The notes under the pieces were generated by a model. That model made no database searches. It saw nothing but the letters and a program-made list of their open reading frames with translations, and was not told where the DNA came from. From positions 1 through 64,000 of the forward strand of contig JANYJJ010000008.1 in the NCBI GenBank assembly GCA_025358485.1: a DNA stretch of 64,000 nt, written 5' to 3'. Positions within the stretch are counted from its first letter, which is position 1. Every line of letters begins with the position of its first letter. Origin of the DNA: Burkholderiales bacterium (GTDB lineage Bacteria > Pseudomonadota > Gammaproteobacteria > Burkholderiales > Burkholderiaceae_C). The position numbers and the translations under genes are program-made. Positions 18,834-31,634 of the stretch are shown piece after piece.

Positions 18834-19007
18834 ACGAATTGATGCGTTTTAGGTGCTTTACATCCGAAATTTTACCGATCAGCATTCGTCATTGCCGCAG
18901 CGCTGTCAGTTGAGTCGCAACGCCTTGACGCTGAACACAAAAGCCGCAGCCACACCTGGACGCGTGTTGCCTTGCCGTTGCGGTGGAGACGGTGTCAGAA
19001 TAATTTC

Positions 19008-20060
19008 ATGGACCTTCGCTTCAAAACCAACCTGCTCGAACACACCAAAGCCGTCGCCACCTGGGCTGCCCGGCGTGGTGCTCAGACCGCCATCAATGTG
19101 GCCGACATGTCGCTCACAGTGACGCTCAACGGCGGGCTGGGTGCGAATGCCGCACCGGTTCAGCACAAACTTTATGCGCAGTTTGTCGGCAAGCGCGATG
19201 GCCAGCGCCTTTGCTACTTTGATGTGGCCGATGCGCCCGCCATCGGCTTTGTGGGCTGGCTGCCTCACAAAGCGCAGGCTTGGGACATCTCCCTCAGCAA
19301 GTTGACGTTCAAAGCCGCCGCGCGTGAGGCGGGCCTCGCCACGCCAGCGCAGTGGTCGCAAAGCCAATTTGTCGACAGCGCCTTCTTGGTCAAGCGCGCT
19401 CGCGGTGCGTTTGGCGATGGCATGCGCGGCCCCTTTCGTGCTGAACAAGCGACCGAGTTGACGCTGGCCGACGGCGAGTTTTTTGAAGCCTTCAAGTCGG
19501 GACACATTGCACGCGCTTGGTATTGGGGTGACCGCTTGGCCGTGCTCGAACTGTTCGCCATGCCCAGCGTCACCGGCGATGGCCGTTCGACTTACGAATC
19601 CCTTTTGCGTCAAGCCCTGGGGCATGCAGCGTTGCCCGCCGACTTTGCCGACATTGCGCGCCTGCAAAACGTGCGGCCGTCGGATGTGCCGCAAGCGGGC
19701 GCGTCCGTCGTGTGCGACTACCGCTACGTGTCGCCCTTCAACCCGACGGTTTATGCCAATCACAACGTGTTGCCGCACCTTAAGACGCACCAAATCGTTC
19801 AGCACTTTTCCGACGCCGGACGTCGAATGTGGCCTCGCGTTGCAAGCGCTGCGGCGGCTGATATCCAAACTGAGCATTCGCTTTCGCCGTCGGCTGCAGC
19901 CGTTGACAGTTTGCAAACCGGCTTTGTGCTCGACGCCATCGTCGATGCCCAAGGCCAGCCCTGGTTCCTTGAAATCAACAGCAACCCGCAGTTGCACCCC
20001 GACCTGTATGCCTCCATGTTGGACGGCATTTGCGGCTTGAATCGCAACCCAGCGCGTTGA
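19008..20060 (+). CDS. ATP-grasp-like protein of unknown function
   Basis: C-terminal GFVLDAIVDAQGQPWFLEINSNPQLHPDLY resembles the metal-binding end of ATP-grasp ligases; FLVKRARGAFGDGMRG could be a nucleotide-binding loop. Confidence 0.55.
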   Translation: MDLRFKTNLLEHTKAVATWAARRGAQTAINVADMSLTVTLNGGLGANAAPVQHKLYAQFVGKRDGQRLCYFDVADAPAIGFVGWLPHKAQAWDISLSKLTFKAAAREAGLATPAQWSQSQFVDSAFLVKRARGAFGDGMRGPFRAEQATELTLADGEFFEAFKSGHIARAWYWGDRLAVLELFAMPSVTGDGRSTYESLLRQALGHAALPADFADIARLQNVRPSDVPQAGASVVCDYRYVSPFNPTVYANHNVLPHLKTHQIVQHFSDAGRRMWPRVASAAAADIQTEHSLSPSAAAVDSLQTGFVLDAIVDAQGQPWFLEINSNPQLHPDLYASMLDGICGLNRNPAR

Positions 20061-20073
20061 CCGGCAGCACACC

Positions 20074-20814
20074 GTGCAACTGGCTCCGCGCGCTGCGCCG
20101 CCCCATCAACCGACACAGGCGCAAGCAAGCAGTGCAGACGCCGTTGGATTTCGCGTGGGTGTGGCAGACGCGGCAAACATCACCGACCGCGAGTCCATTG
20201 CCGCATTGCGCCGCGCCGCCTACCGCAAAGCCGCGCAGTTTGAATGGAACGATGAATCCACACTCGATTGGTCAACGGCCGACGACACCGGCACTGTGAT
20301 GGCGGTGTGGGACGCTGCGGGCAATGTGCTGTCCACCATACGCGCGTCAGTTTTCAGCGATGCGGTGGGTGCCGAGGCGTTTCTCGAATACTCATTGACC
20401 GGAATTTCATTGCCCGGCCCCGCGCTGACGCTGTCGCGCGCAGCCACTGCGCCGCATGCCGCGCAGCACGGCCTGTTCGCGCTTCTGCGCATTGCTTATT
20501 TGTCTGCGTTGCCCGACACGCCCATCAACAGCGCGATCGCCATCGTCTACGAAGGTGCGCCGCACAGCGGCCTCATGCGCGAGTGCGGCTACAGCTTCTT
20601 CCAGCCCCAAGCCGGGTGGGATACCGAAGCGGTTGCGCGCACCCGGCCTATGCTGGCGGTGTTGCCACGTGCAAAATTCGCGCACTCACTGGCGCTGCGT
20701 CAAGCTGGTTTAACGCCGCAGTCGCACCCGGTGCAATTTGACATCGCCGCCATTTCGCAGTCTTTGCGGGCGCAGTGCCAGGCGCTCGCCGTGCCTTCTG
20801 CGGCGAATACTTGA
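20074..20814 (+). CDS. Acyltransferase of GNAT/N-acyl amino acid synthase type
   Basis: RESIAALRRAAYRKAAQFEW, GNVLSTIRASVF, ALTLSRAATAPHAAQHGLFALLRIAYL, IVYEGAPHSGLMRECGYSFF; GTG start 14 nt after previous stop. Confidence 0.6.
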   Translation: MQLAPRAAPPHQPTQAQASSADAVGFRVGVADAANITDRESIAALRRAAYRKAAQFEWNDESTLDWSTADDTGTVMAVWDAAGNVLSTIRASVFSDAVGAEAFLEYSLTGISLPGPALTLSRAATAPHAAQHGLFALLRIAYLSALPDTPINSAIAIVYEGAPHSGLMRECGYSFFQPQAGWDTEAVARTRPMLAVLPRAKFAHSLALRQAGLTPQSHPVQFDIAAISQSLRAQCQALAVPSAANT

Positions 20815-20952: not shown

Positions 20953-23900
20953 ATGAGAGTCAACAATTCAGGCAACCGCGCGTATTTGCGCGACAGCGAA
21001 GACCTCGAAACTTTCACCGACCTGCGCCCGCGTGCCCCAGTCGCTCCCAGCCAGCGCATGGCGCGGCCTTCGGCCGAGGCTGCTCCCAGACGCAACCCCT
21101 GGACTATTTCTGACGAGCAGCCGCAAGACGGTGCAAACACCTCGACAGACAGCGCCCGGGACGACGCATCGTCGCTGCCCAGCGCCCCCTCCAACACCAC
21201 TGCTGCAGCCAACGCCCGCCTGTTGTCGTACTTTGAAGATGCTGACCGCGATGCGCTTGCCCAAGAATTCGCACCGGCACCGGCACCGCAACAAACACCG
21301 GGCCGCGAGTCAGCGACCTTCAGCTTTGCACCGACCTCTGCACCCACGTTGCAGCCCAGTGCGATAGCAACAGCCGATGCGAGCGACCTTGAGAGCGCCT
21401 CGCTCAACAGCAACAGCGAAATCAGCATCAAGGTCAGTGTCAGCGCGCCGCGCCAGCGGGCTGATGAACTTGACAGCACAGCCGCGCTCAATGCTCCGGC
21501 ACCTGCCCCGGCGTCTACCGCAGGCGTGCTGGCCAACCGAAGTGCACCTGCGGGCACCACAGCAGCAACCGCACTCACACCGACAGCTGCCCCGGCTCCC
21601 ACACCATCTGGCACCAACGAAACGCCCGTCAGCACCGCTTGGCTGCAAACCCGCGAAACCGCCTTGGCGGCGCTGCGCACCGACTACCGCGCCGCACTCG
21701 CGCACGCCCAGTCCGACATCCCCGTCTTTGGCAACATCGGCCCCGGCTGGGTGACTGCCACCCCCGCCACCTACGCATACGACGACAACAACGGCCCAAG
21801 CTACAGCCCAGGCCAAGCCATGCAGGTTCTGGTGACCGACCCCACCACCGCCCCCGTGCAAATCGGTTGGGACGAAGGCGGCCCCGTCATGCAAGCGCCC
21901 GCAGGCCGCTTGCTTGAATTCAACGAAGCCGCCTTCGCACAGTTTTATCAAGCGCAGGCCGCTGCCACCCAAGCCCCCAGCACCGCACTGCAAACCCTGG
22001 CCACCGCCTACGCCAGCAGCCCCGCAGCTGTCTTCACCGACCACCCCGGCCTGTGGGAGCTTGCCAGCTGTGATGCAGCCCAAGCCGCAGCCAACCCTGC
22101 CAACGCCGGGCCTGCCCCGGCCGGTGTGGCCATGGGCAACGCCTCTCAGCTCGGCATGACCGACCTGTACCTGGCCGACCCACAAATCGCTGCACTCATC
22201 GCAGCCTACGGCGGCACCGCCGAACCCGCCGCCAGCCCCATGGCGTTGGAGCAAGTGCGCCTTTACGGCCAGAACCGCTACAACCAGCTCACCCGCCTGG
22301 GCAACGCCATGCAGTCGGTGCGCGACCAATACAGCCAAGCCCTGGCCAACGCCCAAACCAGCGGCGGTGCCTTTGGCGGCGGCCCCGGTTGGGTAGACCG
22401 ACCCATCGCGCTGACTACTTTCAACGTCACCGACGAAAGCGGCCAGTCGCTGGGCAGTTACGGCAACAGCCTCACACCAACGGTGACTTCCTTCGAACGC
22501 GTCTTCGACCCCGACGCCTTCACCGCTTGGTACATCCAACAACCTGGTCTGGCCAACCAGGCATTTGCCGACCACTACGGTGCCAGCCGCACCGAATACG
22601 CCACCGACGAATCGGGCCGCAGCTTTGTCAGCGGCATGGCCTTCGCCAACTCGCTGTGGAGCGCAGGCCCCAACGGCAGCGGCATGCGTCATGCCGAACT
22701 GGCAGGCATCAACCTGAACGACCCGCCCGACCTGCACCACGCCGAAGCCGTGGGCTTTGACTTCGCAGTGGGCTGGTCCACCAGCCAAGCCAACATCGAC
22801 CAAGGCACCGACTGGTTTGAGACCGTCGCCAAGCTGGTCGTCATCGCTGCGGTGGCCTGGGTCACCGCAGGCACCCTGGGCCCCGCCTTGGCGGGCTCCA
22901 TGGGCATGAGCACAGCCGCAGCCGGTACCGCCGTCACCGCCGCCACCCTGACCACGGGCGGCCTGATCGTCAGCGCCGCCGTGGTGGGTGCCGCCACCTC
23001 CTTGGCCAGCGGGCTGCTCAACGACAACCTCACCCTCCAAGGCGTGCTGCGCGGTGCGCTGGCAGGCGCACTCACCGCCGGCTTGATGCAAGGCGTCAGC
23101 AGCGCCCTCGGGGCAACTGCCGCCAGTCCCTTGGGCACGTTGGGCACCATCGCTGCGCGCACCACCGTGCAAGGCGCAGTGCAAGCCCTGATGGGCGGCA
23201 AGTTCGCAGACGGCGCGCTGGCAGGCTTCGCCTCCGGCTTGGCTGAAGCAGCCAGCGCCAACATGCTGGGCGGCATAGACAAAGCCGTCAGCGAGGGCAG
23301 CATGACTGCCAGTGCGGCAGTGGCCGCCAAGACCTTCGCCCGCGTCTTCAGCTCAGCCATCCGCGCCGCAGGCAGCCCAGGCGACCCGACCCAAGCATTC
23401 GCCAGTGCGTTTCTGGACGATGTGTTCAAGCAAATCGAGACACCACAAATCAGTAGCCCGGTCACGCAAACCGCATTTGATGATGAGGGCAGACTGAACT
23501 TGGGCATCGTGGATCCACCAGTCACCGAAACCCAGTCCCTCGAATTGACCGCTGACCCGCTGGTCGTGCAAGGCCGCTTCGTGCCCAACGCGCAGCATGA
23601 CAGCGTGATGGCCGAGTTGAACGCCGAGTTCAACATCGACGCCTATGCGCCTGCGCCGCTGATGGATGACGGCGTCGATCCATCTGAGCGTGACCCCAAT
23701 CTGATGCCTGTCGGCTGGGTCAATGATGTGGGGGCCAGCGCAGCAGCCTACGCACAACGCTTGGCCAGTCGCGTGGGCGGTGAGTTGGGCGATTTGTTCC
23801 AGCGCGCTGCACGCGCAGCAGGTGCGGTGCTGAGCTACGGCGACATTGCGCCGCTGGAAGCCGTCAAGGTCGACATTCGCAACTACCTGGACGCCCGCTC

Positions 23901-24639
23901 AGCCGCAGGTGGGCTCAGCGAGGCTGAGATCATTCTGTTTGGCGTGCTGTACGCGGCCAATGAAACTTTGTTCCCCACCAACGCGGTGGACTTCGCGGGC
24001 GGCATAGGCAAGGGCATCAAAGCGGCCGGTGCCTTGGTGGTGGCAGGGCGGGGTGCCGATGTGTTGGTCGCCACCACCCGGGCCGTCAACATCGAGCAAG
24101 CGGTGGCCCGTCAGGTGCAAGCGGTCGAACAGGCCGCCAAGGCGCGGGGGCTGGAAGTCATCCGCGAAGTGCCTGGTGTCAAAGGCGCGTGGAACGACGG
24201 TTTGAACACCTCACTCAAGCCCGGCGCGGTCTATCTTCTGGACAATGGGCACGCCTACATGACGGATGCGCTGGGGCGGGTGTCAAAGGCGGAAGCAGTT
24301 TTGGATCTCGGTGTCGCAGGAAGTCGCAGCGGATATCAACAGCTGATCGTTGGACAGATCGGCGGCCCTGGGTACGAAGGCGGGCACTTAATTGCAACGC
24401 TGTTTGGTGGCGCAGGCGAGAAAATAAATTTGATCCCTCAGCTTGTTGAAGTTAATCGAGTTGAATTTAGAGCGATGGAGAGAACGTGGGCAGACGCTGT
24501 CACGTCTGGAAAAGTGGTGAAGGTTGAGCTCAATCCAATCTACAGCGGCAAGGAATCGGTGCCGTCGATGCTGACTGTTCGCTATTGGATCGACGACAAG
24601 GTTACGGTCGTACCGTTCCGCAATAAACCAGGAGGTTGA
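20953..24639 (+). CDS. Large polymorphic toxin with C-terminal DNA/RNA non-specific endonuclease-type (Endonuclease_NS_2-like) tip
   Basis: 1228 aa: Pro/Ala-rich disordered N-terminus, two related GPGWV.. modules, Gly/Ala-rich hydrophobic region (LVVIAAVAWVTAGTLGPALAGSMGMSTAAAGTAV), pretoxin segment, nuclease-like tip YEGGHLIATLFGGAGEKINLIPQLVEVNR; immunity ORF follows immediately. Confidence 0.85.
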   Translation: MRVNNSGNRAYLRDSEDLETFTDLRPRAPVAPSQRMARPSAEAAPRRNPWTISDEQPQDGANTSTDSARDDASSLPSAPSNTTAAANARLLSYFEDADRDALAQEFAPAPAPQQTPGRESATFSFAPTSAPTLQPSAIATADASDLESASLNSNSEISIKVSVSAPRQRADELDSTAALNAPAPAPASTAGVLANRSAPAGTTAATALTPTAAPAPTPSGTNETPVSTAWLQTRETALAALRTDYRAALAHAQSDIPVFGNIGPGWVTATPATYAYDDNNGPSYSPGQAMQVLVTDPTTAPVQIGWDEGGPVMQAPAGRLLEFNEAAFAQFYQAQAAATQAPSTALQTLATAYASSPAAVFTDHPGLWELASCDAAQAAANPANAGPAPAGVAMGNASQLGMTDLYLADPQIAALIAAYGGTAEPAASPMALEQVRLYGQNRYNQLTRLGNAMQSVRDQYSQALANAQTSGGAFGGGPGWVDRPIALTTFNVTDESGQSLGSYGNSLTPTVTSFERVFDPDAFTAWYIQQPGLANQAFADHYGASRTEYATDESGRSFVSGMAFANSLWSAGPNGSGMRHAELAGINLNDPPDLHHAEAVGFDFAVGWSTSQANIDQGTDWFETVAKLVVIAAVAWVTAGTLGPALAGSMGMSTAAAGTAVTAATLTTGGLIVSAAVVGAATSLASGLLNDNLTLQGVLRGALAGALTAGLMQGVSSALGATAASPLGTLGTIAARTTVQGAVQALMGGKFADGALAGFASGLAEAASANMLGGIDKAVSEGSMTASAAVAAKTFARVFSSAIRAAGSPGDPTQAFASAFLDDVFKQIETPQISSPVTQTAFDDEGRLNLGIVDPPVTETQSLELTADPLVVQGRFVPNAQHDSVMAELNAEFNIDAYAPAPLMDDGVDPSERDPNLMPVGWVNDVGASAAAYAQRLASRVGGELGDLFQRAARAAGAVLSYGDIAPLEAVKVDIRNYLDARSAAGGLSEAEIILFGVLYAANETLFPTNAVDFAGGIGKGIKAAGALVVAGRGADVLVATTRAVNIEQAVARQVQAVEQAAKARGLEVIREVPGVKGAWNDGLNTSLKPGAVYLLDNGHAYMTDALGRVSKAEAVLDLGVAGSRSGYQQLIVGQIGGPGYEGGHLIATLFGGAGEKINLIPQLVEVNRVEFRAMERTWADAVTSGKVVKVELNPIYSGKESVPSMLTVRYWIDDKVTVVPFRNKPGG

Positions 24640-24640
24640 G

Positions 24641-25003
24641 ATGGCTGGACTATCTGAATTAGATGGGCTCGTTAGCAAGATCGCAATGACCATTTATACG
24701 TCGCCTCCTGTTGCCGACTGGTCGTCCGCAAAGTTCATTTCCAAATACTCACCGACGGGTGTTGGCGCGTTCGAGTTCGCATACACAGATTCAACCAACG
24801 AAGTCGATGAAAGCGAAACGCCAAATGCGCAAGCTATTTGCGAACTGTCTGACTACACGCACCTTCATTGGCGACTAAATCAGGACATTGGTCAACCGGC
24901 TTGGTACAAGATGATCGTCAATGTCGAGCGAAGCGGCAAATTTAATGTTGAGTTTGAATACAAAGACGATTACCAAGAAGGCGACATCTTGAAGCGGGGT
25001 TAG
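24641..25003 (+). CDS. Immunity protein, YezG/DUF600-like (pair 1)
   Basis: 120 aa directly after toxin stop; C-terminus WYKMIVNVERSGKFNVEFEYKDDYQEGDI matches YezG-type immunity proteins and recurs in two more copies here. Confidence 0.8.
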   Translation: MAGLSELDGLVSKIAMTIYTSPPVADWSSAKFISKYSPTGVGAFEFAYTDSTNEVDESETPNAQAICELSDYTHLHWRLNQDIGQPAWYKMIVNVERSGKFNVEFEYKDDYQEGDILKRG

Positions 25004-25068
25004 CCGGTTCAGCAAACCGCTTGAATCGCTGCCACTCGAGCCCAATCTAGCAGCGCGCCGCAGGCGGC

Positions 25069-25878
25069 GTGCACAGCTACGGCGACATTGCGCCGCTGGA
25101 AGCCGTCAAGGTTGACATTCGCAACTACCTTGACGCCCGCTCCGCCGCAGGTGGGCTCAGCGAGGCTGAGATCATTCTGTTTGGCGTGCTGTACGCGGCC
25201 AATGAAACTTTGTTCCCCACCAACGCGGTGGACTTCGCGGGCGGCATAGGCAAAGGCATCAAAGCGGCCGGTGCCTTGGTGGTGGCAGGGCGGGGTGCCG
25301 ATGTGCTGGTCGCCACCACCCGGGCCGTCAACATCGAGCAAGCGGTGGCCCGTCAGGTGCAAGCGGTCGAGCAGGCCGCCAAGGCGCGGGGCCTGGAAGT
25401 CATCCGCGAAGTGCCTGGCGTCAAAGGCGCGTGGAACGACGGTTTGAACACCTCACTGAAGCCCGGCGCGGTCTATCTTCTGGACAATGGGCACGCCTAC
25501 ATGACCGATGCGCTGGGGCGGGTGAGCAAGGCAGAAGGTTTGCTGGATGTCAGCAAGATGGACCGCAACGCCTACCAACAGCTGATGGCCGGGAAGGTCG
25601 GCGGTGAAGGCTACGAAGGCGGGCATTTGATCGCCACGCTGTTTGGCGGTGCGGGGGAGAAGATCAACCTGATCCCGCAATTGACTTCGGTGAATCGCGG
25701 TGATTTTCGGATGCTGGAAAAGGAATGGGCCGATGCGATCCGGGCCGGCAAGGAAGTGAAGGTGGAAGTCAGCCCGATTTATGTGGGGAGCAGCAAGGTG
25801 CCAGACAGAATCGATGTGACGCACTGGATTGCAGGCAAACGAGAAACCTCTACCTTTTTGAATAAACCTGGAGGCTAA
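25069..25878 (+). pseudogene. Orphan toxin C-terminal cassette (copy 2, nuclease tip)
   Basis: Near-identical to the parental toxin from SYGDIAPLEAVKVDIRNYLDARSAAGGLSEAEIILF onward; lacks the N-terminal delivery region; only a weak GTG start. Confidence 0.85.
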
Positions 25879-25882
25879 AACC

Positions 25883-26245
25883 ATGGGACTTGCAGAGCTC
25901 GACAAGATGACAACCGAAGTAGCGAGCCACGTGTTTAGAGCGGTGCCAATGACTGATTGGCAGCGGGTTCAAGCGTTTCTTAAATCAAGGCCTGATGGAA
26001 GCGTACGAACTCGAAGCTATGACTTTCTGTTGGCCGATGGACACCTCGATCAAGGCACCTCACCAATTGCTGAGGCAGATCAACTGGTCGATTTGACGGC
26101 TGCCAAGCACTGGCAACTCACCCAAGACCTTGGCCAACCCCGTTGGTACAAGATGATCGTCACCGTCGAGCGCAGCGGCAAGTTCACGGTCGACTTTAAA
26201 TACAAAGACGACTACCAGGAGGGCGACATCATCAAGCGCGACTGA
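25883..26245 (+). CDS. Immunity protein, YezG/DUF600-like (pair 2)
   Basis: 120 aa; different N-terminal two thirds, conserved C-terminus QLTQDLGQPRWYKMIVTVERSGKFTVDFKYKDDYQEGDIIKR. Confidence 0.8.
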   Translation: MGLAELDKMTTEVASHVFRAVPMTDWQRVQAFLKSRPDGSVRTRSYDFLLADGHLDQGTSPIAEADQLVDLTAAKHWQLTQDLGQPRWYKMIVTVERSGKFTVDFKYKDDYQEGDIIKRD

Positions 26246-26283
26246 GCACCAAACCTCAGACTTTCCGAGCAATCCACCTTGAT

Positions 26284-28041
26284 TTGGAAACCGTAGGAGT
26301 CCCGCCAGCGGGCTGCTCAACGATGACCGCCGGTGCGGCAGTGGCTGCCAAGACCTTCGCCCGCGTCTTCAGCTCAGCCATCCGCGCCGCAGGCAGCCCA
26401 GGCGACCCGACCCAGGCATTCGCCAGCGCGTTTCTGGACGATGTGTTCAAGCAGATCGACACCAGCACGCCGATCAAGCAAACCGCATTTGACGACGAGG
26501 GCAGACTGAACTTGGGCATCGTGGATCCCAATGCCACAGCGGAGCAACAAGCGCAGCAGTTGGCCGCGCAGTTGCAACGCCAAGGTATGTCACCGGCGCA
26601 GGCCAACCTGATGGCGCAGCAAGCGCTGGGCAATGTGGTCAACGGTGTGGCGCAGTTGCCGCAGCCGCAGCAAGTGACCCCGACGGCGACCACCGGCAGT
26701 GGCACCACGGCGAGCACTGGCACGTCGGGTAGCACGGGCAGCGCGGCCACATCCGGCCCGCCATCCCAGGTGCCCAACCCACCACCCGATCTGGTTTGGA
26801 CTTCTGCCGACGGCCGCTCCGTTTATCCCTCGGCGAGTGTTCAACCTGTCGGCACACCGCGCCCCTTTGCGGGCGATCAACCCGGCTTTCCTGACCCCAG
26901 CGTGTTGCCCGCAGGCGCACAAGTCACCGCGCTTCGTGACGATGCAGGGCGCACGTTTTGGCGCGTGCTGGCCAGCGGTGTCGATTTGGTCGTGGCGGGA
27001 ACAGCTACCAACACCACTTCCACCAGCACAGACGACCCGTCGGTGATCCAACTTGAAACCGTGGTGATCACCGCACGGCGCATCCCGCGCGTCGAGTCCA
27101 CCGACGCACAGGGCAACACGCTGGTCACGCAGGGCAATGCCGCATCGGTGACCACGCTGATGGGCACCACGCTGGTGGCCACGCAGATGGGCGAGGGCTT
27201 GGCCTTGGGCGAAGCTGCCACCGTCGCCGCACGCGTGCTGGCTGGTTTGGCGCGCTTGGCTTCGCTGCCTGCTGCGGCGCTCGTGCTGCTGTTCACACCG
27301 ACCAATGCGACCGAGCAGTTTGTTGATTTGGCCCCGGGTGAGCGCTTCCGCACGCGTCCGGGTGATCTGTACGGCGAGCTGCAAATGCAAAGCGCAGACG
27401 GCCGCTGGTTAAGCATGCCGGGGCAGGTCAGGCTGGACCAAGTGCAAGGCCGCTCCATGCTTACCGACGAGGAGCGCGCACTCATCGGTGCGCCGCTGAC
27501 AACGCCAAGCGACCCAAGGCAAACACCGCCGCTGGTCACGCCGATTCCGGCAGACAGCGACCGCATGCCGCCGCTGCCGGGCTTGGAGATTCAAGAACCC
27601 ACCGGGCCGACAATCACGACCACGCCGGTTGATCCGCAGAACTGGCGCGACTTGATCCTCGACAAGCGAAACTCCGAGATTCTTGGCGACAACTTGCGGG
27701 CCGGCGGAATAGACAAACCGGCGGATGGGTACGAGGCGCATCACGTTGTGCCGAGCAGCGCGGGTGGGGCGAGGATGGACGCGCTGCGCGCCAAGTTGGA
27801 GTTGCTCGGAATCGATCTGAACAATCCGGCAAACGGCGTTTGGCTGCCAGGGCCGAATGCGTCAAGAGACGCAACCGAGGCTTATCACCGCACGCTAAAC
27901 AATACTGATTACAACAATGCGGTGGACGATGTTTTTGTGGGCATCTCCACCAAGGAAGAGGCATTGACTGCTCTGAGAGACATCGGCAACCAACTAAAGG
28001 ACGGGAGTTTCCCAGGTGTGCGTCCTCGTCCAAAACCTTAA
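26284..28041 (+). pseudogene. Orphan toxin cassette (copy 3) with AHH-type HNH nuclease tip
   Basis: Begins with the shared pretoxin segment AAKTFARVFSSAIRAAGSPGDPTQAFASAFLDDVFKQI...AFDDEGRLNLGIVDP, then unrelated sequence ending YEAHHVVPSSAGGARMDALRAKLELLGIDLNNPANGVWLPG (AHH). Only a TTG start and no delivery domain. Confidence 0.8.
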
Positions 28042-28059
28042 GGGTGTGAAAGTTGAACC

Positions 28060-28686
28060 ATGAAAATTTACGAGCTAAATGCAAGTTCCGACGAAAGATG
28101 GGTCTGGTTTTTTACGGTTGAAGGACCGCTTCGACCAGGTCACTTTAGCCAAACGCGAGCATTCTTTGAGATGCAACCTCGCATCCGCATTGACCGAAAT
28201 ACGGAAAAGAGTCCGCGCAGATCGAGCGCGATATTGGCTGATTACTCCTGTCTGGACACCGGATCACAGCCATGTTTCGGTGAACGGTCCAAACGTGCGC
28301 TGTGTCGGCAACTTGACGCTTCAGGGCAATGGCTGGCGCTGGAGTGCGCTGAAGCACCCTATTGGCTCTTCAACGTTACTCACTCTGTGGATGCGCTCGA
28401 CGAGTCCAAATCAGAATTGATAAGGTTCGACGACGGCCGAATCATGCGAATAGCGCAGTTCGCATTCCAGCCCGAACGGCTCAGAGGTCAACTGATTTTT
28501 CAGCTTCCCCAACGTCCGGGAGCCCCTAACCTCGTGACCCAAGACTTCGTCGATCTTGTTCACGAACATGGCCTGACAGGGTTTAGTTTTAGGCTGCTGT
28601 GGTCAGAAGAAAACGGCCCCGTTTCGTCGAAGTTGAAGGACTGGGAGCGCCCACGCATCACAGGCCTGGAGTCGCGCATAACTTGA
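28060..28686 (+). CDS. Immunity protein, Imm11/DUF1629-like (cognate of AHH tip)
   Basis: 208 aa; YWLFNVTHSVDALDESKSELI...LIFQLPQRPGAPNLVTQDFVDLVHEHGLTGFSFRLLW resembles Imm11. Confidence 0.75.
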   Translation: MKIYELNASSDERWVWFFTVEGPLRPGHFSQTRAFFEMQPRIRIDRNTEKSPRRSSAILADYSCLDTGSQPCFGERSKRALCRQLDASGQWLALECAEAPYWLFNVTHSVDALDESKSELIRFDDGRIMRIAQFAFQPERLRGQLIFQLPQRPGAPNLVTQDFVDLVHEHGLTGFSFRLLWSEENGPVSSKLKDWERPRITGLESRIT

Positions 28687-28828
28687 CGCGGCGCAGCCCG
28701 CTTCGCCGCAGCTTTCAGCGCGACTGAAGTCGCCGCTGACCGACAAGACTTTCTCCCGCGTCTTCGGCTCAGCCATCCGCGCCGCAGGCAGCCCAGGCGA
28801 CCCGACCCAAGCATTCGCCAGCGCGTTC

Positions 28829-30052
28829 TTGGACGATGTGTTCAAGCAAATCGACCCACCAAAAATCAGTAGCCCGGTCACGCAAACAGCATTTGATGAT
28901 GAGGGCAGACTGAACTTGGGCATCGTGGACCCACCAGTCACCGAAACCCAGTCCCTCGAATTGACCGCTGACCCGCTGGTCGTGCAAGGCCGCTTCGTGC
29001 CCAACGCGCAGCATGACAGCGTGATGGCCGAGTTGAATGCCGAGTTCGACATCGACGCCGATGCGCCTGCGCCGCTGATGGATGACGGCTCCGATCCATC
29101 TGAGCGTGACCCCAATCTGATGCCTGTGGGCTGGGTCAATGACGTGGGGGCCAGCGCTGCAGCTTACGCACAACGCTTGGCCAGTCGGGTGGGCGGTGAG
29201 TTGGGCGATTTGTTCCAGCGCGCTGCACGCGCAGCAGGCGCGGTGTTGAGCTACGGCGACATTGCGCCGCTGGAAGCCGTCAAGGTCGACATTCGCAACT
29301 ACCTTGACGCCCGCTCCGCCGCGGGTGGGCTCAGTGAGGCTGAGATCATTCTGTTTGGCGTGCTGTACGCGGCCAATGAAACTTTGTTCCCCACCAACGC
29401 GGTGGACTTCGCAGGCACCATCGGCAAAGGCATCAAAGCGGCCGGGGCGTTGGTGGTGGCAGGGCGGGGTGCCGATGTGCTGGTCGCCACCACCCGGGCC
29501 GTCAACATCGAGCAAGCGGTGGCCCGTCAGGTGCAAGCGGTCGAACAGGCCGCCAAGGCGCGGGGCCTGGAAGTCATCCGCGAAGTACCTGGTGTCAAAG
29601 GCGCGTGGAACGACGGTTTGAACACCTCACTCAAGCCCGGCGCGGTCTATCTTCTGGACAATGGGCACGCCTACATGACCGATGCGCTGGGGCGGGTGTC
29701 AAAGGCGGAAGGTTTGCTGGACGTGACAAAGATGGACCGCAACGCCTATCAACAGCTGATGGCTGGGAAGGTCGGCGGTGAAGGTTACGAGGGCGGGCAT
29801 TTGATCGCCACGCTGTTTGGCGGTGCGGGCGAGAAGATCAACCTGATCCCTCAGTTGGCGGCGGTGAACAGAGGTGAGTTCAGGGTGCTTGAGAAAGAGT
29901 GGGCCGATGCGATTCGGGCGGGCAAGGAAGTGAAGGTGGAGGTGAGTCCGATTTACTTGGGGAGCAGCAAGGTGCCTGATACCGTTGTTGCTCGTTGGTG
30001 GGTAAACGGCGTCCCCGAGCAACGAATTTTTCCAAATAAACCTGGGGGCTGA
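28829..30052 (+). pseudogene. Orphan toxin C-terminal cassette (copy 4, nuclease tip)
   Basis: Nearly identical to parental toxin from FLDDVFKQI through GGHLIATLFGGAGEKINLIPQ; in-frame homology extends upstream to about 28755 (TFSRVFGSAIRAAGSPGDPTQAFASAF). Confidence 0.85.
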
Positions 30053-30053
30053 G

Positions 30054-30413
30054 ATGAATTTCGCAAAGCTAGACGATGCGACGACGGCAGTCATCACGGC
30101 CATCGTGAATGCGTTCGATTCGACCAAATGGAATCGCATTCGCCATGAAGCTCGATGGACTCCTTCTGGTGATGTTGGGGCAGATGACTATTGGATCGAA
30201 GTTCACTCAGGGCCAAGTACCAAAGTTTTGCCGGAAATTGGCCCGTCTTTGTTGGTGTCAAAAAGTTCAAAGCTGCACTGGCAACTCACCCAAGACCTGG
30301 GCCAACCCCGTTGGTACAAGATGATCGTCACCGTCGAGCGCAGTGGCAAGTTCACGGTCGACTTTGAATACAAAGACGACTATCAAGAAGGCGACATCAT
30401 CAAGCGCGGCTGA
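30054..30413 (+). CDS. Immunity protein, YezG/DUF600-like (pair 4)
   Basis: 119 aa; C-terminus HWQLTQDLGQPRWYKMIVTVERSGKFTVDFEYKDDYQEGDIIKRG nearly identical to pair 2; unique N-terminus. Confidence 0.8.
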   Translation: MNFAKLDDATTAVITAIVNAFDSTKWNRIRHEARWTPSGDVGADDYWIEVHSGPSTKVLPEIGPSLLVSKSSKLHWQLTQDLGQPRWYKMIVTVERSGKFTVDFEYKDDYQEGDIIKRG

Positions 30414-30486
30414 TTGCCAACGTGCATTGGTTGTGAGCCATCGACGCTGATTTAGAAACGCAGGAAACGCCGTCAGGGGCCCGGGA

Positions 30487-30621
30487 ATGCAAGCCGCCTT
30501 CTACGACGAAGGCCTATTGAAACAGGGCATCGTCAGCTCGAACGCATTGCCCCAGCAGCCTGCTGCCCACTTGGCCAATCACCCGCAGCGACAAGGCATG
30601 CTGCCTGCGAAGGTGGCTTGA
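30487..30621 (+). pseudogene. Degenerate remnant of a fifth pretoxin segment
   Basis: MQAAFYDEGLLKQGIVSSNALPQQPAAHLANHPQRQGMLPAKVA* aligns with copy 3 QTAFDDEGRLNLGIVDPNATAEQQAQQLAAQLQRQGMSPAQA. Confidence 0.65.
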
Positions 30622-30692: not shown

Positions 30693-31526
30693 CTACCGCA
30701 AGTCCGCAGCCCATGTTTCGATCAACGCCTTCCCGCCTTCAAAATGCATACCGTCCTCTTTGCCAAACGCCGCGCCCCAATACCAACCGTGGCGGTTGAA
30801 GATGGGCGCGATGAGGGTCAGGCCGTACTGCACTTTGCCGTCGCCGTAAGTGTCGAGTTCGCCGTTCAGGGTGAGGTCAATGGCGGTGCCGAAGGAGTGG
30901 TTGGAGATGGCGCTGCTCGAGCCGCGTTGCAGGCGGCAGCACAGCATGCCTGCGCTGCCCAGGGCGGTGTGAATGTCGGCATGCGCTGCGGCGATGTCGC
31001 GCATCACGGCTTTGAGGCTCAGCACGGCTGGCAGCAAACCGGTCACGCGGAAGGGGCCAACGGTGTCGAGCACCAAGTTGCGGCGCAGCTTGGGGTTGGT
31101 GGGCGTTTGGCACAGGCTGGAGTAGTTTTGAGCTGTCAATGGGTGCCCCAACTTTTGAAGCATGAAGGCGTTGCCGGGCGACACCAGTCCTTGGTTGATG
31201 ATGTTGGGAGCGGGCAAAGGCACAGGCCGCGTCACCGATCCAGCGGCGGTGTCGGTGGGCGCTGGCGCTTGTGTGGAGCTGCCGGTGAAGGCGGAACTGA
31301 GGTGCCGCCACGTGGTACCGCCGGGGTCAATCTTCCCGTCGGGCGTGCGCATGAAGGCGGCTTGAAACGCGACGATGGCCGCGATGGTGTTGGCATCACA
31401 AACGCCGGTGGCCGCGACCAAGTGCGTTTGACCACGTGCCAGCAAAACTTGTTGAACCAACAACACGTCGGGCGGGTGGTTCACGCCAGCGCGACCCACG
31501 GATGCTGAAATTTCTGCTGCGGGCAT
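30693..31526 (-). CDS. Peptidoglycan-binding + M15-family peptidase-like protein
   Basis: N-terminal PG-binding-like region (VNHPPDVLLVQQVLLARGQ...GVCDANTIAAIVAFQ) and SNHSFGTAIDLTLNGELDTYGDG...GMHFEGG (M15/VanY zinc-binding motifs). Confidence 0.8.
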   Translation of the reverse strand: MPAAEISASVGRAGVNHPPDVLLVQQVLLARGQTHLVAATGVCDANTIAAIVAFQAAFMRTPDGKIDPGGTTWRHLSSAFTGSSTQAPAPTDTAAGSVTRPVPLPAPNIINQGLVSPGNAFMLQKLGHPLTAQNYSSLCQTPTNPKLRRNLVLDTVGPFRVTGLLPAVLSLKAVMRDIAAAHADIHTALGSAGMLCCRLQRGSSSAISNHSFGTAIDLTLNGELDTYGDGKVQYGLTLIAPIFNRHGWYWGAAFGKEDGMHFEGGKALIETWAADLR

Positions 31527-31634
31527 GCTGATCTCCCGTGGTTTTTGAGGGCACTTGCACAAGGTCAAGCGTCGATTTGCGTCGCAATTTATTCCTTGCG
31601 TGCCAGCGCCGCCACCCCTAGAAGCGCTTGCCAC

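Follow-up and report, generated by a model that had tools for sequence, protein, structure and literature searches.

The window analysed in this work is a stretch of 64,000 nucleotides (nt) from a Burkholderiales bacterium (assembly GCA_025358485.1, contig JANYJJ010000008.1), in which a large toxin gene and its immunity gene are followed by further toxin-tip and immunity genes. An earlier note, made from the sequence and a list of its open reading frames (ORFs), had described a complete toxin with its immunity gene and, downstream on the same strand, three units each consisting of a toxin fragment and an immunity gene. This layout was borne out by the ORF listing of the window, in which all ORFs named in the note were present on the plus strand, and judged from its sequence the locus very probably encodes a polymorphic toxin with orphan cassettes. 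In window coordinates the array is composed as follows:

20953..24639, plus strand: parent polymorphic toxin, 1228 amino acids (aa) (ORF listing, Pfam)
24641..25003, plus strand: immunity 0, YezG-like (EsaG type; Pfam PF04634, E 2e-5)
25054..25878 (ORF listed from 25069), plus strand: orphan cassette 1, pretoxin and Endonuclea_NS_2 tip, headless (self-comparison, Pfam)
25883..26245, plus strand: immunity 1, YezG-like (Pfam)
26304..28041 (ORF listed from 26284), plus strand: orphan cassette 2, pretoxin fragment and AHH nuclease tip (Pfam; collinear with the expressed toxin of locus L014, see below)
about 27694-27993, plus strand: AHH domain of orphan 2 (Pfam AHH, E 1.9e-9)
28060..28686, plus strand: immunity 2, Imm11 (Pfam, E 7e-11; 44% identical to the L014 immunity protein)
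28718..30052 (ORF listed from 28829), plus strand: orphan cassette 3, pretoxin and Endonuclea_NS_2 tip, headless, with stops upstream (self-comparison, Pfam)
30054..30413, plus strand: immunity 3, YezG-like, just under the Pfam cut-off (52% identical to immunity 1)
30474..30539, plus strand: degenerate trace of a fourth cassette (self-comparison)

The ORFs of the orphan units were as previously described, but their start points had to be revised, the listed starts being merely the first GTG or TTG in frame. Homology to the parent begins only at 25054 in orphan 1, at 26323 in orphan 2 (with a scrap at 26304-26328) and at about 28718-28744 in orphan 3, thus the orphans are headless. An in-frame TAG was found shortly upstream of orphan 1. 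The degenerate trace, which had been placed at 30487-30621, is real but weak: it reads QAAFYDEGLLKQGIV against QTAFDDEGRLNLGIV of the parent (65% identity in the nucleotide self-comparison).

The same comparison revealed homology between cassettes and parent well above chance level. It takes the form of long direct repeats of 89-93% identity, in agreement with the nucleotide-level relationship for which a self dot-plot had been suggested. Positions 23321-24543 of the parent match 28737-29956 of orphan 3 (90% over 1226 nt), 23812-24440 match 25054-25679 of orphan 1 (90% over 632 nt), and 23302-23516 match 26323-26528 of orphan 2 (89%); between orphans 1 and 3, 25054-25805 and 29228-29979 are 93% identical over 752 nt. 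Two stretches mark the ends of the shared sequence:

23302..23466, plus strand: junction tract AAKTFARV...FLDDVF, where the homology of orphans 2 and 3 starts
26107..26291, plus strand: 3' homology block, common to 24865-25003 and 30275-30459, covering the end of the YezG-type immunity genes and beyond

Over the 5' tract that they share, cassettes and parent are 92-100% identical, confirming that the orphans start with sequence nearly identical to an internal part of the parent; identity falls to 50-65% over tip and immunity gene and rises again at the immunity 3' end. When parent and orphan 1 were compared in 60-nt steps, values of 97-98% were obtained at about 23835-24250, then 50-65% over most of the tip and immunity gene, and 73-78% towards the end of the latter, where orphans 1 and 3 reach 97%. 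This second homology block, absent from the earlier note, takes up the final ~130-185 nt of the immunity genes of YezG type (from 24865, 26107 and 30275). In the parent and in orphan 1 the C-terminal KPGG codons, kept as the last codons of the tip, double as an AGGAGG- or GGAGG-like ribosome site that serves the immunity gene (regions 24620-24660 and 25865-25900); recombination would therefore preserve the translational coupling of toxin and antidote.

Parent, orphan 1 and orphan 3 all end in an Endonuclea_NS_2 domain (Pfam E 1e-28 to 1e-31) and each is followed by a YezG-like protein, the three being mutually 40-52% identical, whereas orphan 2 carries an AHH nuclease (2e-9) followed by Imm11 (7e-11). 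The GGHLIATLFGGAGEKINLIPQ motif is kept in all three NS_2 tips, and the AHH motif of orphan 2 is intact. As orphans 1 and 3 belong to the same nuclease family as the parent tip and differ from it chiefly in immunity group, their introduction would change immunity specificity and not chemistry, whereas a swap with orphan 2 would change the toxin itself.

Within the parent the following parts were distinguished:

20953..21615, plus strand: Cys-free, Pro/Ala/Ser/Thr-rich N-terminus without Sec signal, aa 1-221; candidate export signal region for a type III secretion system (T3SS) (composition, hydropathy)
22138..22824, plus strand: kept scaffold module, aa 396-624, the second GPGWV module (family alignments; AlphaFold2 model)
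22813..23268, plus strand: DUF637-like hydrophobic pretoxin domain, aa 621-772 (hhalign 97.6%, E 3e-12)
24244..24594, plus strand: Endonuclea_NS_2 nuclease tip, EssD/EsaD-like (Pfam E 1.7e-28; PDB 8guo/8gun EssD, E 1e-13)

The description of the N-terminus as Pro/Ala-rich and signal-less was upheld by composition and hydropathy alike: the first 200 residues contain no Cys and consist to about one half of Pro, Ala, Ser and Thr, and no Sec-like hydrophobic stretch was detected there by hydropathy. A role of aa 1-221 in T3SS export is deduced from these properties, and the region is put forward as a candidate. With Pfam there was no match in aa 1-1097, and no two-partner secretion (TPS), FHA, RHS repeat, PAAR, MafB or LXG domain was found in the parent. 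The model of the aa 396-624 module was good (pLDDT 83.7, pTM 0.79); neither this 229-aa model nor a larger low-confidence model found a fold match in the PDB or viral libraries, and a PDB sequence search with the scaffold gave no match. Weak, low-complexity matches of the parent to a PHROGs tape-measure protein (E 0.0033) and to NCBIfam enzymes were rejected. Residues 621-772, in contrast, gave a profile-to-sequence match to one FHA-type protein from another family of the order, in the region named DUF637 by Pfam. DUF637 is a pretoxin region of CdiA-type proteins, and the term is used throughout in PMC4725963. Of the scaffold, for which HHpred and Foldseek searches had been suggested, one part thus gave no fold match and another a DUF637-like one; as the note had it, the scaffold is not of the FHA, Rhs or MafB type, but in view of its pretoxin it is not wholly unfamiliar.

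The same toxin family was found at other loci. The genome of the window (G000, 214 contigs) carries, besides the locus described here (contig C65), a second one on contig C18 (L007 6696-14590), with a 1291-aa parent 51% identical to the window parent, tandem immunity genes (83% identical in DNA), an orphan 1 accompanied by a small gene of its own and an orphan 2 in which 702 nt of the C18 parent recur at 94% identity; no Pfam family was found for the tips of the C18 parent and its orphan 1. At locus L014 (JAKOZT010000073.1) the toxin core is 46% identical to that of the window parent. Its expressed-position tip is an AHH domain followed by Imm11, collinear with orphan 2 of the window (34% over 611 aa; immunity 44%). 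A tip silent in the window is thus the expressed one of a syntenic toxin. Synteny is indicated by two upstream genes kept at both loci, the first of which has its L014 counterpart likewise upstream of the toxin:

18972..20060, plus strand: ATP-grasp-like gene, kept upstream neighbour and synteny marker outside the toxin (55% to L014 7364-8389; weak TTL/ATP-grasp Pfam matches)
20074..20814, plus strand: acetyltransferase-like gene, second kept upstream neighbour (41% to the L014 ORF at the same place; weak FeeM match)

Beyond the array, a gene for a peptidoglycan-binding and M15 D-Ala-D-Ala carboxypeptidase protein lies on the minus strand (30693-31634).

Across genomes one core bears at least three different Pfam tips, plus tips without a Pfam name: Endonuclea_NS_2 (window, L027 and L028), AHH with Imm11 (L014), papain-fold Gln_amidase with Imm35 (L068) and a tip of no named family with Imm49 (L029). 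The cognate immunity gene (YezG-like, Imm11, Imm35 or Imm49) lies directly 3' of the tip. With a constant N-terminal part and exchangeable tips, adjacent immunity genes and homologous standalone cassettes, the family corresponds to what is defined as a polymorphic toxin. The core was not found on plasmids or phages, and a search of 300 genomes of the order from beyond the taxonomic family matched the DUF637 part alone, in an FHA-type protein. The latter is a giant frame in another family of the order (L074, G106 C9) that has the DUF637 pretoxin in common with the parent toxin, which suggests exchange of pretoxins between scaffolds of contact-dependent growth inhibition (CDI) systems and T3SS-linked ones. 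In the complete genome G016 two further, partial core matches (C1:327694-328533 and C1:806660-807499) had identical scores and profile ranges and are perhaps a duplicated or mobile remnant.

The shared tracts are under purifying selection. In 138 codons of shared pretoxin, parent and orphan 1 differ by 9 synonymous and 0 nonsynonymous changes, parent and orphan 3 by 12 and 2, and orphans 1 and 3 by 11 and 2. Had even half of these differences arisen in a headless copy evolving neutrally, so small a number of replacements would be improbable (p about 0.005 to 0.045); most of the divergence of the tracts therefore dates from a time when they belonged to functional toxins. Their history may have been one of recent displacement, of import from functional alleles or of cycling, and the pattern would fit a used library and recent acquisition alike. 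This bears on the view that the orphans are fossils left by earlier displacements, retained (if they are) for the sake of their immunity genes and not as a reservoir in use, an idea discussed in the same form for CDI (PMC4927057). The headless ORFs, the decayed trace and the stops upstream of orphan 3 are what fossils would look like. However, the ORFs of the tips are unbroken and retain their conserved nuclease motifs, and the pretoxin tracts differ almost only synonymously; in fossils both would decay, unless they had been recently acquired. Taking both sides into account, we regard the fossil view as possible, though on the doubtful side.

To relate the toxin to secretion systems, 401 genomes of the taxonomic family were searched, the scaffold being called by its core profile and the T3SS by the SctC secretin above the curated cut-off. 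The scaffold core was rare (9 of 401 genomes). SctC was present in all nine of these genomes and in 58 of the 401 overall (hypergeometric p 1.6e-8, a genome-level value inflated by kinship); counted by genus, it was present in 5/5 scaffold genera as compared with 33/141 (p 5e-4). With the L014 genome added, SctC was found in 10/10 toxin genomes, the type VI secretion system (T6SS; TssC) in 3/10 and ShlB/TpsB in 4/10. The T3SS is thus the sole carrier among those tested that all family members share. T6SS was rejected as a common carrier on these counts, as was two-partner secretion, for which no CdiB was recognized at the window locus either. In three genomes the toxin gene lies within or beside a T3SS cluster. 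In G286 it starts about 25 nt after the sctC stop on the same strand, sctC being preceded by sctV; in G289 it lies about 0.7 kb beyond the end of a cluster that includes SctV, C, J and N; and in G016 it ends about 2 kb from a cluster of the same kind, on the opposite strand. The G286 locus (L029 6434-18417, contig C53) contains two tandem toxins with N-termini 54% related and with different tips, directly 3' of sctV-sctC. A T6SS cluster adjoins the T3SS genes there. The T3SS of the window genome is on contig C57, where SctC, SctJ and SctR scored over the cut-off and SctD, N, S, U and V were matched as well; in tetranucleotide use this contig resembles the window (r = 0.974). From co-occurrence and linkage, neither of which figures in the earlier note, we consider it likely that the toxin is exported by the T3SS, and the combined statement, that a polymorphic toxin with a library of silent tips leaves through the T3SS, is somewhat probable.

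Several observations weigh against this interpretation. The association comes from 9 genomes in 5 genera, G016 and G289 belonging to the same genus, and the toxin loci of the window genome (C65 and C18) are not beside its T3SS. No T3SS chaperone gene was found at the window locus, and Hrp/PIP box matches (TTCG-N-TTCG) were at chance level, with none upstream of the parent. To our knowledge, T3SS delivery into bacteria is not generally established. The AHH/Imm11 match between window and L014 is old (44% identity) and too diverged to count as evidence of a recent swap; toxicity and actual tip switching are presumed from the sequences. Finally, the window genome also has a TssC gene and three ShlB-type matches. 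Together with the DUF637 pretoxin, which is typical of two-partner CdiA proteins, these would suit a reading in which toxin and cassettes are the same but export follows a different route, be it T6SS, two-partner secretion or an unknown one, and the link to the T3SS is a coincidence of shared islands. Such a route is unlikely, since T6SS is missing from seven and ShlB from six of the ten toxin genomes, all of which have SctC, three toxins are within or beside T3SS clusters, and the parent lacks PAAR, TPS, FHA and Rhs domains. That the protein is a T3SS effector against eukaryotes such as grazing protists, its immunity genes only preventing self-poisoning, is quite improbable: the T3SS is classically anti-eukaryotic, and nucleases and papain-fold deamidases could act in any cell, but tips and immunity proteins of these families (EsaD/EsaG, AHH/Imm11, papain toxin/Imm35) belong to interbacterial toxins, and several immunity groups of one nuclease fit kin competition.

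The parent toxin is thus probably antibacterial, with delivery into bacteria and killing deduced from its tip and immunity families. In the mechanism that we propose, the signal-less scaffold would leave the cell through the cell's own T3SS, the DUF637-like hydrophobic segment would assist membrane passage of the C-terminal DNA/RNA nuclease tip, and the producer would be shielded by the YezG/EsaG-like product of the neighbouring gene. The three downstream cassettes may be displaced or captured tips without heads. Their 5' pretoxin tracts and, in the YezG type, 3' immunity tracts would let recombination join a cassette to the parent head, so that a single step could change the toxin or the immunity group, cognate antidote included. 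As to the locus being one of tip switching, orphan cassettes, homology of recombination grade and an AHH/Imm11 pair expressed in L014 speak for it, and the reading of the orphans as silent tip cassettes has good support, but no switch was seen within this lineage or a population; in L014 the pair holds the expressed position of a syntenic toxin but is too diverged for a recent swap. In its full form, in which an antibacterial family rides a complete T3SS with silent tip libraries and injectisomes serve tip-switching warfare, the proposal is a tentative one. If it is true, the T3SS would be added to the carriers of polymorphic toxins, and the question of injectisomes directed at bacteria could be tested directly in cultured relatives. 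The window locus itself offers clean material for studying tip switching, with homology tracts at both ends and a tip that is silent here and expressed in L014.

The locus resembles several known systems in part. As in CDI (CdiA/CdiI) loci, orphan tip/immunity modules homologous to the parent lie downstream on the same strand, and the pretoxin is DUF637-like; in contrast to CDI, the window parent has neither a TPS/FHA domain nor a Sec signal, no CdiB gene is at the locus and no matching VENN region was identified in the parent. The silent cassettes of MafB in Neisseria (PMC4287609) are likewise headless C-terminal cassettes each with an immunity gene, and there too, as with the window and L014, the C-terminal region expressed by one genome occurs as a silent cassette in another; the scaffold, however, is different, the window parent having no MafB domain and no hydrophobic N-terminal stretch. 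Fusion of an orphan C-terminal/immunity module to the parent by recombination, as proposed here, is described for Rhs of Salmonella (cited in PMC4927057), whereas the window parent has no RHS repeats and most carriers have no T6SS. With EsaD/EsaG (EssD) of the S. aureus type VII system the locus shares the EssD-like tip and the YezG/EsaG-like immunity protein. According to PMC9484751, immunity genes of this type have evolved through recombination among paralogues arranged in tandem. The resemblance to EsaD is confined to the tip, however: the window toxin has no LXG domain or type VII context, and its host is Gram-negative with a T3SS.

That a type III apparatus can act on bacteria has a precedent in the needleless T3SS* of Myxococcus, which takes part in prey lysis (PMC12075869); this system has neither needle nor secretin and operates together with a Tad pilus, whereas the T3SSs of the family described here have SctC. 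Closest in the nature of the protein is SopD-Tox-PL1 of Shewanella (PMC3482391), a toxin-domain protein encoded in a T3SS operon and proposed there to be delivered by the T3SS, but this protein stands alone, has a SopD head and is described without cassettes. The 2012 catalogue of polymorphic toxin carriers comprises type II, V, VI and VII secretion, PVC, PrsW and MuF, and includes type III only through this one Shewanella protein (PMC3482391). No report of a T3SS-linked polymorphic toxin with immunity genes was found in the open-access literature, subscription papers and preprints being outside the scope of the search. Orphan cassettes are already well known from CDI, Rhs and MafB; what would be new is the T3SS-linked scaffold family.

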